Below are positions 9,428 to 53,146 of a DNA stretch of 56,814 bases, piece by piece. Source of the DNA: a virus; IMG/VR virus record IMGVR_UViG_3300029319_000057, positions 1-56,814 of that record, one strand, 5' to 3'. Numbering within the stretch: position 1 is the first letter of the stretch; each line of letters opens with the position of its first letter. Both the position numbers and the translations under genes were made by a program. The notes under the pieces are model-generated. The model ran no database searches. It was not told where the DNA came from and worked only from the letters and a program-made list of their open reading frames with translations.

Positions 9428-10993
9428 ATGGAATATAATAATCCAAGTGAGATAGTAAAGAATCTGTCTTTCGGGGCAGATGCAAGAGACAAAATAATGC
9501 ACGGGGTTGATAAACTAGCAAATGCGGTTAAATCAACCCTAGGTGCTTCCGGAAAATGCGTTATATACGAAGACGCGTTAGGCCGGCCGGTAATTACAAA
9601 AGACGGTGTAACCGTTGCGGAAAGCGTAGTCTTATATGACCCGGTCGAAAACATAGGGGCAACTCTTATAAAGGAAGCAGCTAGAAATACAGTAAAAGAA
9701 GCCGGAGACGGTACAACAACAGCAACAGTGCTTGCGCAGGCATTGTTGCACCTCGCATATGCAAAAATTAAGGATGAGGGTGTGCGTAATATTAAATTAG
9801 GTATATCCTCTGCCCTTGATAAAGTAACTGAGCACTTACAGGAGGAAGCAATTCCCGTCAAGGATGACATGTTAAGATCCGTAAGTGCTATTAGTTGCAA
9901 TAATGATGAGGCTCTGGGAAATATCATATCGCAAGCCTATTCGAAGGTAGGTAAGGATGGTGTCGTCCTTATGGAAGAGTCTGAGACCCATGACACATAC
10001 GTTAAATTCGTAGAGGGCACACGAATAGAAGGCGGACTCAAATCGCCACATTTTATGACAGATAGAGATAAAGGTAGAGCAGTACTAGACAATCCGTACG
10101 TACTAATAGTTACTTCGCCAATACCTAATATCCGTAAAATACAAAGTGTATTGGAGTTTGTTATTAAAAAGAAAAGGAGCTTATTAATCGTTGCAGGCGT
10201 AGAACAACAACCTATGGCAGCTTTATTAGCTAACAAGGTTAAAGGCAATATAAAAGTTAATGTTGTAGATCTGCCTGGATTCGGACCAACTAAGCAAGAT
10301 ACAGTAGAAGATCTTGCGATATTGACTGGAGCAAAAATAATAGACGAAGAACTTGGTGATGATTTAGATTTAATAAATCCAGATGTACTCGGTGAGGCTA
10401 AGCAAGCTATAACCGATAATACACATACAGTTCTTCAAACTATAGATCAAGGTGAAATTTCTAAAGAACGAGTTAAAAAAGTTGAAAAGAAAATAAAAAA
10501 AGAAAAAGACCCGTACTTTAAGAAGAAGCAACAAGAACGTTTAGCTATGCTAAATGGGCAAGTTGCGATGATAAAAGTCGGCGCCGATTCTAAAATTGAG
10601 CTAAAAGAAAAGAAAGATAGAGTTGAAGACGCTATTTATGCAACTAGAGCAGCATTACAAGAAGGAATAGTATCTGGAGGTGGAATTGCATTATTAGATG
10701 CTCATTATAATATACAGCCTGAAAATGAAGGCGAGCGTATTTTATTAGAAGCTATAAAAGCTCCATATAAAACTATTTTAGAAAATGCTAATTTAGAATA
10801 TAAAGAAACAGGTAAACAAGGGACAGGCGTTAATGTTATATCTGGCAAACAAGTTAATATGATTAAATCCGGTATTATTGATCCTGTGCTTGTAACTAAG
10901 ACAGCGTTAAAAAATGCAGTTAGCGTTGTCAATACTATATTTTCTGCAGATTGTGTAATTTCAAATATTAGAATAGACAATGCAAGCAGTTAA
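9428..10993 (+). CDS. groEL: Phage chaperonin GroEL
   Basis: A 521-residue group I chaperonin. Diagnostic motifs are present: TKDGVTVAESV and GDGTTTATVLAQALL in the N-terminal equatorial ATPase domain, the apical-domain stretch with KIQSVLEFVIKKKRSLLIVA, and DRVEDAIYATRAALQEGIVS followed by GGG in the C-terminal equatorial domain. It lacks the Gly-Gly-Met tail and is some 25 residues shorter than bacterial GroEL. It should fold phage capsid or other proteins in the host cytoplasm, with the GroES that overlaps its 3' end. Base composition changes inside the gene: four lines at 9481-9720 are 45% GC, three lines at 10741-10920 are 29% GC, which suggests a mosaic origin. Confidence 0.95.
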   Translation: MEYNNPSEIVKNLSFGADARDKIMHGVDKLANAVKSTLGASGKCVIYEDALGRPVITKDGVTVAESVVLYDPVENIGATLIKEAARNTVKEAGDGTTTATVLAQALLHLAYAKIKDEGVRNIKLGISSALDKVTEHLQEEAIPVKDDMLRSVSAISCNNDEALGNIISQAYSKVGKDGVVLMEESETHDTYVKFVEGTRIEGGLKSPHFMTDRDKGRAVLDNPYVLIVTSPIPNIRKIQSVLEFVIKKKRSLLIVAGVEQQPMAALLANKVKGNIKVNVVDLPGFGPTKQDTVEDLAILTGAKIIDEELGDDLDLINPDVLGEAKQAITDNTHTVLQTIDQGEISKERVKKVEKKIKKEKDPYFKKKQQERLAMLNGQVAMIKVGADSKIELKEKKDRVEDAIYATRAALQEGIVSGGGIALLDAHYNIQPENEGERILLEAIKAPYKTILENANLEYKETGKQGTGVNVISGKQVNMIKSGIIDPVLVTKTALKNAVSVVNTIFSADCVISNIRIDNASS

Positions 10994-11237
10994 TTATTAT
11001 ATAGTAATAGAAAAAATAAAAGAAGCGCCGAAGAAAGTAGGCGGCTTAGAACTTACGGAAGATCAAAATAAAGACGTAAGATATGCAAAAGGTAAAATAA
11101 TTTCTGCTGGTGATAAAGTAGAAATGTTAAACACAGGTGATATAGTACATTATGATAGACATGCAGGCCATGGCATACAATGGAAAGATAAGCTGTATTA
11201 TGTATTAAAGCTTGGTGATATAGTTTTAGTTGAATGA
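10980..11237 (+). CDS. groES: Co-chaperonin GroES
   Basis: An 85-residue protein with the GroES beta-barrel pattern: YYIVIEKIKEAPKKVGGLEL, then YAKGKIISAGD, GDIVHYDRHAGHGIQWKDKL and the final VLKLGDIVLVE. The mobile-loop region is short (GGLELTED). It overlaps the groEL stop by 14 bases. The order groEL-groES is the reverse of the usual bacterial groES-groEL operon. It would cap the GroEL ring in the cytoplasm. Confidence 0.85.
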   Translation: MQAVNYYIVIEKIKEAPKKVGGLELTEDQNKDVRYAKGKIISAGDKVEMLNTGDIVHYDRHAGHGIQWKDKLYYVLKLGDIVLVE

Positions 11238-14715: not shown

Positions 14716-15060
14716 ATGAAATTATTAAATCAATTAAAAAAATTAAATCAATTAGAGTTTTTAAATAAAAGACAAATGCATTTTGCATATTGTTTTGGCG
14801 CGTCAATAGTAATTGTGGGCGCTTGGATGAAAATAACACATGTAAGTTTTATGGGCATTACAGGTAATGCAATGCTAACTATAGGTTTATTAACAGAAGC
14901 TTTTATATTTCTTATATCCGCTTTTGAAAAACCAGAACCAACATATGATTGGACTATAGTATATCCAGATTTAAAAAAGAAAAAGAAGGAAGAAAGAAAG
15001 CTTTATGATATAAAAGTAAATGAAGACGAATTAAAAACTTTAAATCGTTTAAAAAAATAA
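14716..15060 (+). CDS. GldL-like inner-membrane protein (gliding/type IX secretion motor homologue)
   Basis: A 114-residue protein with two predicted membrane helices, residues about 23-43 and 51-70, and a short cytoplasmic tail. The segments YCFGASIVIVGAWMKITH and GNAMLTIGLLTEAFIFLIS, followed by AFEKPEP and DWTIVYPDL, match the N-terminal region of GldL. GldL is the proton-channel subunit of the Bacteroidota gliding and type IX secretion motor. The two ionisable membrane residues known to be essential in GldL, a Lys in helix 1 and a Glu in helix 2, are present as Lys39 and Glu61. Their 22-residue spacing is that of Lys27/Glu49 in Flavobacterium johnsoniae. The C-terminal cytoplasmic domain of GldL is missing. 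It precedes a holin-like gene, so a lysis or motor-interference role is possible; both are inference. Confidence 0.7.
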   Translation: MKLLNQLKKLNQLEFLNKRQMHFAYCFGASIVIVGAWMKITHVSFMGITGNAMLTIGLLTEAFIFLISAFEKPEPTYDWTIVYPDLKKKKKEERKLYDIKVNEDELKTLNRLKK

Positions 15061-15061
15061 A

Positions 15062-15460
15062 ATGAGTAAAATATTATCTAAACTATTCGGTAACTCTAGC
15101 GGAGCAGTCGTAGACAAGCTAGCTGGTGTTGCTGATAGGTTTATTAGAACAAAAGACGAAAAAGCAGAGTTTGAAAAAGAAATGACTCAAATATTTATAG
15201 AAGCAGAAAAAGAAATGCAAAAGAATGTTACCGAAAGATGGAAAGCTGATTTGGAGCATGGTAATTGGCTTACGCGTTCTGTAAGGCCATTAGTATTAGT
15301 ATTTTTAATTATAAGTACTGTATTAATGGTTTTTATTGATTCTGGCTCTATTGCTTTTCAAGTAGAAGATAAATGGACAGACTTATTGCAAATTGTCCTT
15401 ATAACAGTAATCGGCGCGTATTTTGGAGGGCGCTCGGTTGAAAAATTAAGAAAAAAATAA
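15062..15460 (+). CDS. Putative holin, 132 residues
   Basis: The N-terminal half is a charged helix (KDEKAEFEKEMTQIFIEAEK). It is followed by WLTRSVRPLVLVFLIISTVL (first membrane segment, about residues 76-97) and a second segment, DLLQIVLITVIGAYFGGRSV (about 107-127). The motif NWLTRSVRPLVL and the end YFGGRSVEK are typical of the phage holin family related to the 3-TM holins of gene-transfer agents. Holins form lesions in the inner membrane to release the endolysin. It begins one base after the GldL-like stop, so both are probably expressed together. Confidence 0.65.
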   Translation: MSKILSKLFGNSSGAVVDKLAGVADRFIRTKDEKAEFEKEMTQIFIEAEKEMQKNVTERWKADLEHGNWLTRSVRPLVLVFLIISTVLMVFIDSGSIAFQVEDKWTDLLQIVLITVIGAYFGGRSVEKLRKK

Positions 15461-48570: not shown

Positions 48571-49761
48571 ATGAAAAAAATATTAAGTATTTTAGTATTA
48601 TTAATATCTTTTAATATTACTGCACAAGAAGAAAAAGAAAAAGGTAAATTTTTTAAATCTATTTATAATGAATTATTTAAATATGGTACTTTCTATGTTG
48701 CGGGAGATGTCCAGAATCCGAAAGAAAATCCTAAAGATTATTTTGTAAGAACAAACCCAGATGGAAACTTATACACACCACCTGTCGTTGTTGACGGAAC
48801 AGATTATTATGATTTTGATTATCGTTATGGATTTGGTTTTCGTAAAATAGCTAGATTTGATTACGAAAGAAAAACTAAAGACTATTTTAACGGTACAGAA
48901 ACTAACGTAGCTATGACAGCGCCTAACTCTTCAATTAAAGGGTTAGAGTATTTGTTTCATTATGAAAAAGAAAGATCTAGAGACGAAATATTTAAAAACC
49001 ATAGATATTTTGTAAAATGGAGCGGCGATTATCATATGATAAAGCTTGAGAGTAGAGCACAAGGAAAAGTTGATTTTAATTATAAATCAGCAGAAATTAG
49101 AGCTAAATTGCCTATTGGTAAAAAGTTTAGCTTATCAGCAGGTGCAATGTATCGTACACATGAAAGAGCTTACGGATATAATCCAATTGAAATATGGTTA
49201 AATGAAACAGATAGCAATGGCTATCCTGTTAATTATTGGTATCAATTAGGTTATAACTATGGTTTTACTGATCAATGGGTAACTATTAATATTGACGGCG
49301 AAGAAGTATATGATTATTACTGGTATGACCCACAAGGTAATCCTGTAGCTTATACGGATTTACAGTTTCGCGATACTATATTTGAATCTTTAATTAATCG
49401 TTATAATAATGAGCAATGGGATTTATTAGACCCTTTCGGTGTAGTTTCACCAATCGTCGGTTTTGATTTTTATCATTACAAGTCAAATTTTTGGCTTCAC
49501 GCGTACGGTTCTTATTTATTACCATATCATAAATATGTTGAAGGTGATGAAGACTTTAGCTATTTAAACCGTAATAACTGGGGGCTTGGTGGATTAAGAC
49601 AAGACTCAGAGCTTGAGCAATGGGAAGATTTTCAAGCTGGTATAAATTTTGGATGGAAATTAAATAGATCAATAGGTGTATTCTTTGAAGGTGAATATAC
49701 TAAGTTCTGGGATAGTAAAATATATAACGGATCCGTAGGATTCAACATAACACTTAGATAA
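48571..49761 (+). CDS. Secreted outer-membrane beta-barrel protein, 396 residues
   Basis: The N-terminus MKKILSILVLLISFNITAQE is a clear signal peptide with a Bacteroidota-type ITAQ cleavage region. The body alternates hydrophobic and polar residues with many Tyr, Trp and Asp (for example FYHYKSNFWLHAYGSYLLPY), ends in a strand GSVGFNITLR, and has loops rich in Asp and Asn. This is how an outer-membrane barrel looks. A phage product of this kind would be inserted in the host outer membrane, perhaps for superinfection exclusion, receptor masking or lysis. No enzyme motif is visible. It starts a cassette of exported proteins. Confidence 0.65.
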   Translation: MKKILSILVLLISFNITAQEEKEKGKFFKSIYNELFKYGTFYVAGDVQNPKENPKDYFVRTNPDGNLYTPPVVVDGTDYYDFDYRYGFGFRKIARFDYERKTKDYFNGTETNVAMTAPNSSIKGLEYLFHYEKERSRDEIFKNHRYFVKWSGDYHMIKLESRAQGKVDFNYKSAEIRAKLPIGKKFSLSAGAMYRTHERAYGYNPIEIWLNETDSNGYPVNYWYQLGYNYGFTDQWVTINIDGEEVYDYYWYDPQGNPVAYTDLQFRDTIFESLINRYNNEQWDLLDPFGVVSPIVGFDFYHYKSNFWLHAYGSYLLPYHKYVEGDEDFSYLNRNNWGLGGLRQDSELEQWEDFQAGINFGWKLNRSIGVFFEGEYTKFWDSKIYNGSVGFNITLR

Positions 49762-49984: not shown

Positions 49985-50272
49985 ATGGCAAAGCAAATTG
50001 GCGAAGATACTAAATTAACATTAGATTTAAAAACTATAGGAATGATTATTGGGTTTATAATAACCCTTGCTGGTATGTGGTTTGGATTAAAAGCCGATAT
50101 AGCTGAAGCTAAAGAGCTACCGGCCCCTGTAATTGATAGAGTTGAATATGATTTGAAAGATGAATTAATTCGCCAGACAATTATGGACACGCAGGAAGAT
50201 GTAGAGGAGATAAAAGAAACTATTGAAAAAATAGACGAAAGGTTATACGATATACAAAGTAAACAAAGATAA
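49985..50272 (+). CDS. Membrane-anchored coiled-coil protein, 95 residues
   Basis: A single membrane segment at about residues 18-34 (IGMIIGFIITLAGMWFG) is followed by a coiled coil, DEKIRQ-type heptads from residue 50 (VEYDLKDELIRQTIMDTQED, VEEIKETIEKIDERLYDIQS). A one-TM protein with a C-terminal coiled coil in the lysis region resembles an i-spanin (Rz-like) or a small holin/antiholin. With the lipoprotein gene 1.3 kb downstream it could form a spanin pair. The evidence is topological only. Confidence 0.5.
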   Translation: MAKQIGEDTKLTLDLKTIGMIIGFIITLAGMWFGLKADIAEAKELPAPVIDRVEYDLKDELIRQTIMDTQEDVEEIKETIEKIDERLYDIQSKQR

Positions 50273-50670
50273 TGAAATATTTAAATGTAATTTTAATATT
50301 ATTGTCGCTAAATAGTTATTCACAAGAATGGATTACTGATAGCAACTTTGATAGTAAAATAAATGAAAAGCAAGCTTTTGGTGATAATCAAAACTTGCCG
50401 GTAATAGTTGAGTTTTATGCATCATTTAACGACGCTAATAAATTTGAAGACTGGAATAAATTAGAAAACGTTATATATTATAGAGCAGATATAGCTAAAT
50501 GTCCAGCAGCAAAAAAGAAATATAAAGTGCGAATGGCACCAACTTTAATTATATTCAAAGAAGGTATAAAAGAAATAGTATTTAAAGCAGGATTAGATTT
50601 AATGTTACCTGCTGATTTAGAAGAAATACAAGAATCCATTAATGAAGTTAATGCAGCTTCACAATTTTAA
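50272..50670 (+). CDS. Exported thioredoxin-like protein lacking the CxxC motif, 132 residues
   Basis: The signal peptide is MKYLNVILILLSLNSYSQEW. The mature part follows the thioredoxin fold: LPVIVEFYASFNDANKFEDW (the position of the redox motif, here without cysteines), VIYYRADIAKCPAAKKKYKV, then the cis-proline strand RMAPTLIIFKEG. The lack of the CGPC active site means it cannot be an ordinary disulfide exchanger, and the single Cys lies outside the motif. It may bind another protein in the periplasm. It starts one base before the coiled-coil gene's end. Confidence 0.6.
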   Translation: MKYLNVILILLSLNSYSQEWITDSNFDSKINEKQAFGDNQNLPVIVEFYASFNDANKFEDWNKLENVIYYRADIAKCPAAKKKYKVRMAPTLIIFKEGIKEIVFKAGLDLMLPADLEEIQESINEVNAASQF

Positions 50671-51936: not shown

Positions 51937-52108
51937 CGAAAAAGCAATAGCTACTTTAAAAGAAGTACAAAAAAGATATAAGTTAACTGTACAAGAAATT
52001 GAGGATGTTGCCTCAGCAATGAAAGAAGTTGCAAATCAAATAGAAGATATACCTAGTGCATTAAAAGGTGAGGCTCGTAAAGGAAGAAAAAATGGAAAGA
52101 ATAAGTAA
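51869..52108 (+). CDS. Small helical protein, 79 residues
   Basis: The product (MWKLTKKYLKDIWVLLWSKT...) is a helix with a hydrophobic N-terminal stretch, then an acidic coiled section (VQEIEDVASAMKEVANQIED) and a basic end. It overlaps the lipoprotein gene by 68 bases in another frame. The start (MWKL.K) is like that of the 52928 membrane protein. Function unknown. Confidence 0.5.
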   Translation: MWKLTKKYLKDIWVLLWSKTEVDEKAIATLKEVQKRYKLTVQEIEDVASAMKEVANQIEDIPSALKGEARKGRKNGKNK

Positions 52109-52559
52109 AAATATAAGCTATAAAGAAGGTGTGTATAGCATAACTGCTAATAGATTAGGATTAGAAAATAAACCCAACGAAGAACAATTAGCTAACATGA
52201 AAACAATAGCTGAAAAAGTTTTTCAACCTTTAAGAAACTGGGTTGGCGGACCAATAAAAATTAATTCATTTTTTCGTTCACCTGAACTTAATAAAAAAAT
52301 TGGCGGGAGTAAAACCAGCCAACATTGTAAAGGTCAAGCAATTGATTTTGATGATAATTTTGGGCATAAAACAAATGCAGAAATGTTTATGTACATTAGA
52401 GAAAATTTAGATTTTGATCAAATGATATGGGAATTCGGAGATGATAACAATCCTAATTGGGTGCATGTAAGTTATGTATCACCTGAAGCAAATAGAAAAA
52501 GATGTTTAAAAGCATATAGAAATCCTGGTTCAAGAAGCACTAAATATAAAGTAATATAA
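52092..52559 (+). CDS. M15-family peptidoglycan peptidase (endolysin), 155 residues
   Basis: The ATG at 52092 (MERISKNISYKEG) is chosen over an upstream GTG at 52068. The core is INSFFRSPELNKKIGGSKTS, then SQHCKGQAIDFDD and WVHVSY. This is the D-Ala-D-Ala carboxypeptidase/L-Ala-D-Glu peptidase type (Peptidase_M15_3), with zinc ligands His78, Asp85 and His125 by my count. It cleaves peptidoglycan stem peptides in the periplasm during host lysis. There is no signal peptide, so it needs a holin to reach the wall. Two holin candidates are in the window. Confidence 0.85.
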   Translation: MERISKNISYKEGVYSITANRLGLENKPNEEQLANMKTIAEKVFQPLRNWVGGPIKINSFFRSPELNKKIGGSKTSQHCKGQAIDFDDNFGHKTNAEMFMYIRENLDFDQMIWEFGDDNNPNWVHVSYVSPEANRKRCLKAYRNPGSRSTKYKVI

Positions 52560-52924
52560 TGTACGAATATAAAATAATAATTGATCGCTGGGTTGATGGA
52601 GATACTGTAGATGTAGATATAGATTTAGGATTTGATGTTGTATTAAAAAAACAACGTGTAAGGCTACATGGTATAAACGCACCTGAATCAAGAACTAGAG
52701 ATTTAGAAGAAAAAGAAAGAGGATTAGCGGCAAAAGAATTTTGTAAAGGATTTTGCAAAGAAGGCGAGGCGGCTATTCTTAAAACAAAAACTTATGATGC
52801 TAGCGGTAAATACGGTAGGATATTAGGTGAAATATGGTCAGCAGGCGAATTTGCTGATAAATCATTAAACGAATACTTAATTGAAAAAGGACACGCTACT
52901 GAATATTTCGGTGGTAAAAGATAA
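52559..52924 (+). CDS. Staphylococcal-nuclease-like (thermonuclease) protein, 121 residues
   Basis: The sequence follows the SNase fold: IIDRWVDGDTVDVDIDLGFD, then RLHGINAPES and, later, GKYGRILGEI. The catalytic Arg, Glu and Arg fall at residues 35, 43 and 87, the same numbers as in staphylococcal nuclease. The Ca2+ ligand at 40 is Asn instead of Asp, and acidic residues are at 20 and 22. It has no signal peptide, so it probably acts inside the cell, in host DNA breakdown for reuse by the phage RNR, or after lysis. It overlaps the endolysin stop by one base. Confidence 0.85.
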   Translation: MYEYKIIIDRWVDGDTVDVDIDLGFDVVLKKQRVRLHGINAPESRTRDLEEKERGLAAKEFCKGFCKEGEAAILKTKTYDASGKYGRILGEIWSAGEFADKSLNEYLIEKGHATEYFGGKR

Positions 52925-52927
52925 ATT

Positions 52928-53146
52928 ATGTGGAAATTATTTAAAGACGAAAATGATATAAATGAAAAAGCTATTGTAGGTTTTGCTTCATTTATTATCA
53001 TGGTTATATTTGCTTTAGCAGATTTAATAACCGGTTATTTTGGTGAAGATCTAGTTATAAACGAAGTTATTTATAACTCTTTTGTCATAGTGACATTAGG
53101 TAGTTTTGGAATAAGTTCTATAGAAAAAATAAAGGGAAGCAGTTAA
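52928..53146 (+). CDS. Small two-helix membrane protein (holin-like), 72 residues
   Basis: Two membrane segments (about residues 16-35, IVGFASFIIMVIFALADLIT; and 50-64, IYNSFVIVTLGSFGI), charged N- and C-termini. Small size, position at the end of the lysis module and adjacency to the endolysin suit a class II holin. It is the last gene of the rightward block; its stop codon lies in the loop of the following terminator hairpin. Confidence 0.6.
   Translation: MWKLFKDENDINEKAIVGFASFIIMVIFALADLITGYFGEDLVINEVIYNSFVIVTLGSFGISSIEKIKGSS

Follow-up and report, generated by a model that had tools for sequence, protein, structure and literature searches.

The virus DNA analysed here (the window: an IMG/VR virus record of 56,814 bases, taken as a whole) carries at 14716..15060, on the plus strand, a gene whose product is the motor hairpin of GldL without the cytoplasmic domain. 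GldL, the ring protein of the machinery behind gliding and type IX secretion, supplies one half of a proton-driven rotary motor, a type of machine of which few are known. The protein belongs to a recurrent class of phage mini-GldLs, a real gene class which, as far as the literature searched shows, is unreported: the accessible text of the open-licence papers gave no report of a phage-encoded GldL.

The phage protein is a true GldL homologue

The gene encodes a 114-aa protein with two transmembrane (TM) helices and a GldL_N domain, and ends shortly past the DWTxVYPxL motif. In a DNA-level search the domain, which takes in the two TM helices and closes with DWTIVYPDL, was placed at 14785..14979 on the plus strand (Pfam PF22827, 8.7e-29). 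At the protein level GldL_N matched with an E-value of 2.8e-27 and 95.1 bits, for a cut-off of 24, aligning residues 24-88 to profile positions 1-61 (61/62 positions). The NCBIfam equivalog model for GldL, TIGR03513, gave 1.1e-27 and 97.6 bits (cut-off 68.3), in a match that spans just positions 1-74 of its 247. Five solved GldL/PorL sequences also matched, PDB 6ys8 being the best (2.9e-22), and the 6ys8 alignment runs without gaps across the K/E region. Counted on that alignment, K39, H42, E61 and E71 of the phage protein correspond to K27, H30, E49 and E59 of Flavobacterium johnsoniae GldL. The protein is thus a GldL homologue far above chance, with the two membrane helices and the Lys39/Glu61 pair that an earlier note on this sequence had recognised. 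That note had also considered that the similarity might extend only to holins or MotA-like proteins. The profiles point to GldL instead: no MotA, ExbB or TolQ profile (Pfam, NCBIfam) and no holin profile, phrog_3427 and PF11351 included (Pfam, PHROG), matched up to an E-value of 1.

One part of the original description has to be narrowed. The 22-residue spacing between the lysine and the glutamate is present in the window protein, and also in Flavobacteriaceae GldLs with a 4-residue loop, but it comes from that loop; all the other phage GldLs, and the bacterial GldLs that do not have it, show a spacing of 18. A spacing of 22 is therefore not a general GldL signature. The missing cytoplasmic domain, by contrast, was described correctly: the protein stops 28 residues past DWTIVYPDL, and no match to a C-terminal domain was obtained. 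Since both this domain and the linkage to a gldKLMN operon are absent, the phage protein is not a full GldL.

The AlphaFold2 model of the protein has a mean pLDDT of 73.8, rising to 83-89 in the hairpin, with helices at residues 18-41 and 50-69. With this model as the query, the top 13 Foldseek matches were all GldL/PorL chains (probability 1.00, best E-value 9.9e-5) and covered all five solved GldL motors, the first unrelated match having an E-value of 1.8. VIA-align returned the same five entries with Z scores of 7.0-8.1, closely followed by unrelated helical proteins from 6.8, and for this reason we base the assignment to GldL on the sequence evidence.

The gene lies next to a predicted holin in a late structural region

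The phage gldL belongs to a run of plus-strand genes for head and tail proteins, in which it lies directly between the gene of a 621-aa protein and that of a predicted 3TM holin. The predicted holin, which the earlier note had placed beside gldL, is 132 aa long (15062..15460, plus strand) and matches GTA_holin_3TM (Pfam, 2.6e-6) and the holin family phrog_3427 (1.3e-24); its start lies one base past the gldL stop codon. The gldL-holin order is common to most of the gldL phages in the window's group. Just upstream, the 621-aa phage protein (12831..14696, plus strand) has no assigned function and no Pfam or PHROG match; a counterpart of approximately 630-680 aa occupies the equivalent place in related gldL phages. 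Further upstream, in the same run, are phage groEL and groES (9428..11237, plus strand). A ribonucleotide reductase is also encoded by the window genome.

The M15 endolysin is located at 52068-52559 on the plus strand, 37 kb from gldL. It shares 52068-53146 (plus strand) with a nuclease-like ORF and the gene of a 72-aa protein with two TM helices, and the three probably form a second lysis cluster, remote from gldL and its neighbouring holin. Two other plus-strand genes deserve mention in their own right. The first (48571-49761) encodes a 396-aa, aromatic-rich protein with a Bacteroidota-type signal peptide, which resembles an outer-membrane barrel and has no Pfam match; if it is a phage-encoded surface protein, it could change the set of receptors on the infected cell. 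The second (50272-50670) encodes a predicted secreted protein of the thioredoxin fold (Pfam Thioredoxin, 9.6e-7) with a signal-peptide-like N-terminus.

The GenBank relatives of the window terminase are phages of Flavobacterium, Cellulophaga, Tenacibaculum and Maribacter, genera in which the type IX secretion system (T9SS) is present as a rule. When the DNA of the 80 nearest TerL relatives, partly short, was compared, gldL was not found in any of them, and we therefore regard it as an accessory gene whose benefit is not general. Neither was a partner for it detected. The GldM profile matched nothing in the nine gldL phage records searched (the window and eight others), although a GldM mimic with a single TM helix would escape this profile. 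The GldM N-terminal motif was likewise absent from the viral loci; the same scan detected GldM in a bacterial contig.

Mini-GldLs recur in unrelated phages

Alignment-based scans followed by ORF reading identified, besides the window, 28 IMG/VR contigs with a GldL_N protein of 87-146 aa. Alignments were required as queries: scanning the viral contigs with the single window protein gave nothing, and the exact DNA pattern of the window's own motif matched no other viral contig. Since the bacterial GldLs retrieved were approximately 176 aa or longer, with open frames of 204-344 aa in most of the bacterial genomes sampled, shortening of GldL recurs in unrelated phages. The Pfam GldL_N cut-off was passed in all nine virus records tested, and all eight phage proteins scanned matched the NCBIfam GldL model, five of them above its cut-off. 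The longer phage GldLs also match a PHROG tape-measure family (5e-6), mostly over the helical tail.

The mini-gldL genes were found in at least five gene contexts. In the first, that of the window's group, the end of gldL either overlaps the start of the 3TM holin gene or lies no more than 3 bp from it (window, L004-L013, L181, L243-L248 and L249); in L182 the genes that come after gldL are those of a 133-aa protein and an amidase. In the second (L186/L187), gldL sits exactly between the groEL and groES genes of the phage, with an overlap of a few bases at either end (L186:8451-10653). In the third (L188 and L252) it is close to groES-like and glycosyltransferase-like genes, and in the fourth (L253-L255) the adjoining DNA is similar to that of the 160-kb Flavobacterium 'immuto' myophages. 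L003/L184 represent the fifth, along with, as a separate case, L185, whose neighbours include capsid and protease-like genes. On the L003, L188 and L185 contigs the presence of portal, terminase or tail genes was confirmed.

Two candidates were rejected. The sole 'phage' record matched, MT839621.1 (L002), is labelled 'Bacteriophage sp.' in GenBank and is a mislabelled fragment of a bacterial T9SS por operon, with a full-length PorL beside PorK/PorM. A short second GldL-like frame in bacterial genome G026 (L258; G026:C1:777927-778121, minus strand) corresponds to a 64-aa chromosomal gene that stands as an orphan in surroundings free of phage genes; its two-TM product, with a GldL-like GALFKLEH and the conserved glutamate, is possibly a stand-alone bacterial mini-GldL. 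Separately, a contig of a metagenome-assembled genome (MAG) titled Bifidobacterium breve (L112; CALPUN020000006.1) carries a Flavobacterium-type gldL, which points to contamination or mislabelling.

In tree distance, the closest relatives of the window copy are the GldLs of marine Flavobacteriaceae, to which it is 54-60% identical. The set formed by L009, L182 and L186 groups with bacterial GldL G235 (65% identical to P0004), and L003, L185 and L188 make up a third tree group. A single origin for all phage GldLs was not rejected (AU p 0.216, from 83 columns with long branches), but several captures appear the likely history.

The motor residues and helix faces are conserved

The lysine and the glutamate of the proton path are kept in 18/18 distinct phage proteins examined, so the pair does not belong to the window protein alone, as the earlier note had considered it might. 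The H42 equivalent is an asparagine in L186/L187 and is kept in the other distinct phage proteins, and the E71 position is variable. In 13/18 proteins the middle of the cytoplasmic domain is deleted but a C-terminal stretch is kept as well; this stretch matches the final 35-80 positions of a profile that we built from bacterial GldLs (domain E-values 1e-4 to 9e-9). No tail match to this profile was detectable in the window, L003, L185, L188 or L252.

Over the first 55 codons, dN/dS (Nei-Gojobori) ranged from 0 to 0.21 across nine phage gene pairs, which are non-independent and in some cases have small synonymous counts; the tail is looser, reaching 0.81. These ratios indicate that the GldL_N part of the phage proteins is under purifying selection. 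Across the 17 phage sequences other than that of the window, conserved positions cluster on one face of each helix, the same face as in bacterial GldL (342 versus 343 degrees in TM1, and 355 versus 332 in TM2, for phage and bacterial proteins respectively; shuffle p 0.002-0.007), and per-position conservation in phage and bacterial GldL is correlated (Spearman 0.61 and 0.68). Phage GldLs therefore appear to be still constrained by the contacts that GldL makes, and assembly of a ring with a GldM-type axle fits these shared faces better than conversion to an unrelated holin.

A possible role in interference with the host motor

The earlier note had proposed three functions for the protein: poisoning of the motor, proton-leak lysis and the blocking of other phages. 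None of them can be shown from sequence. Poisoning and the blocking of other phages fit best, because no GldM was found in the phage, the tail has been removed repeatedly and T9SS mutants are phage resistant. Such resistance is described for F. columnare mutants in the T9SS genes sprA, gldM, gldK and gldN (PMC9233685), and the GldM G304R change is reported to bring it about in Cellulophaga (PMC13288928).

We tentatively propose, with somewhat less than an even chance of being right, that the phage GldL associates with the GldM of the host and disables or uncouples the motor, shutting down T9SS/gliding and thereby excluding competing phages. Once made, the protein would insert in the inner membrane and build rings around host GldM, either by itself or together with the GldL of the host, the phage having no recognisable GldM of its own. 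Rings that do not have the long cytoplasmic tail, which is proposed to anchor the ring and which binds the PorX-type regulator, would fail to pass on torque normally, and the T9SS/gliding motor would stall or free-wheel. Surface adhesins would then no longer be secreted or moved, gliding would cease late in infection, and the infected cell would become refractory to further phages that use those surface structures (superinfection exclusion). Anchoring by the GldL tail is itself a proposal only (PMC9389320), PorX binds the PorL tail near its C-terminus (PMC5005315), and GldM Arg9 and GldL Glu49 form a proposed ion pair of the motor (PMC12239597).

The kept K/E pair, the shared helix faces and the low dN/dS are what continued ring formation and contact with GldM predict. 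Conservation of the proton-path residues fits a working channel equally well, however, because a pure poison needs no such residues. The location of gldL in the late structural run also counts against exclusion; exclusion genes are often early.

As an alternative, gldL could be an accessory to lysis, its product forming a proton-leaking ring or acting as a helper or antiholin partner of the adjacent 3TM holin, with collapse of the proton-motive force (pmf) helping to time lysis. The junction of gldL with the holin start in most gldL phages of the window's group, the position of gldL upstream of the 133-aa gene and the amidase in L182, and the retention of ionisable membrane residues all agree with this. 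Many related phages, however, have the same holin and no gldL; gldL lies apart from any holin in L186-L188, L252-L255, L003 and L185; the window endolysin is distant; and the conserved helix faces equal those of bacterial GldL. We also know of no proton conduction by GldL without GldM. The proton-leak idea is weakened in particular by the holins that have no gldL, by the gldL genes that in other phages have no lysis gene nearby and by the remoteness of the endolysin, and we consider a role in lysis unlikely.

About as improbable, in our judgement, is that the phage protein augments the motor, as a tail-less but working stator that would keep the host T9SS/gliding machinery going during infection (in the interest, for instance, of host spread, nutrient uptake or the display of surface proteins). 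The purifying selection on the proton-path residues and the GldL_N part would suit such a protein, and the extreme C-terminus of GldL is kept in most non-window versions, as it might be in a working protein. Against this, the middle of the cytoplasmic domain, thought to be needed for anchoring, is gone in all cases, and the full-length phage copy that augmentation would lead one to expect was not found. That the gene is a recently acquired or mis-assembled fragment of bacterial gldL, as its identity to marine Flavobacteriaceae GldL and its lack in the nearest TerL relatives might suggest, is highly improbable and largely refuted by an intact reading frame, an equivalent gene at the equivalent place in independent related contigs, purifying selection in the relatives and recurrence in unrelated phages.

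Returning to interference with the host motor, a bolder version can be entertained, although we think it doubtful: Bacteroidota phages would have repeatedly captured and miniaturised the motor ring, and the unanchored mini-ring, placed around host GldM, would free-wheel, blocking T9SS/gliding and bleeding the pmf. If true, a homologue-based uncoupler of a rotary motor would be an anti-host protein of a kind for which the papers searched contain no earlier description.

Significance and comparison with known systems

Mini-GldLs are carried by a marine phage and by at least 28 other viral contigs, several of which belong to unrelated phages, so interference with the motor appears to be a recurrent, putative phage strategy. 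If the preferred reading, disabling of the host motor, is true, this would be a phage countermeasure against T9SS/gliding, whose loss makes flavobacteria phage resistant, and small genetically encoded T9SS inhibitors would be on offer; among the open-licence papers, as far as their text was accessible, we found no phage countermeasure aimed at this system. The phage GldLs also constitute a natural tail-deleted, residue-conserved series, which could directly test anchoring and regulation by the tail.

The closest known system is the GldL/PorL ring (TIGR03513; PF22827; PDB 6ys8, 7sau, 7saz, 7sat and 7sax), the pentamer of the T9SS/gliding motor, which together with GldM makes up a proton-driven 5:2 complex. 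The phage protein shares its two-TM hairpin, the equivalents of K27, H30, E49 and E59, the DWTxVYPxL motif, the predicted fold and scores over the curated cut-offs. It differs in being stand-alone and phage-encoded, in its length of 114 aa versus about 200-300 with no cytoplasmic domain, and in lying outside a gldKLMN operon with no phage GldM partner. Like 3TM holins (phrog_3427, PF11351), it is a small membrane protein, and the adjacent gene is predicted to encode such a holin, but it has no sequence match to any holin family. In its proposed outcome, a disabled motility apparatus and the exclusion of other phages, it resembles PfsE of Pf phage, a protein which binds PilC of type IV pili and blocks this motility machine for superinfection exclusion (PMC8764522). 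PfsE-type proteins are unrelated small pilus inhibitors, whereas the phage GldL is a truncated homologue of the ring protein of the very motor that it would target.
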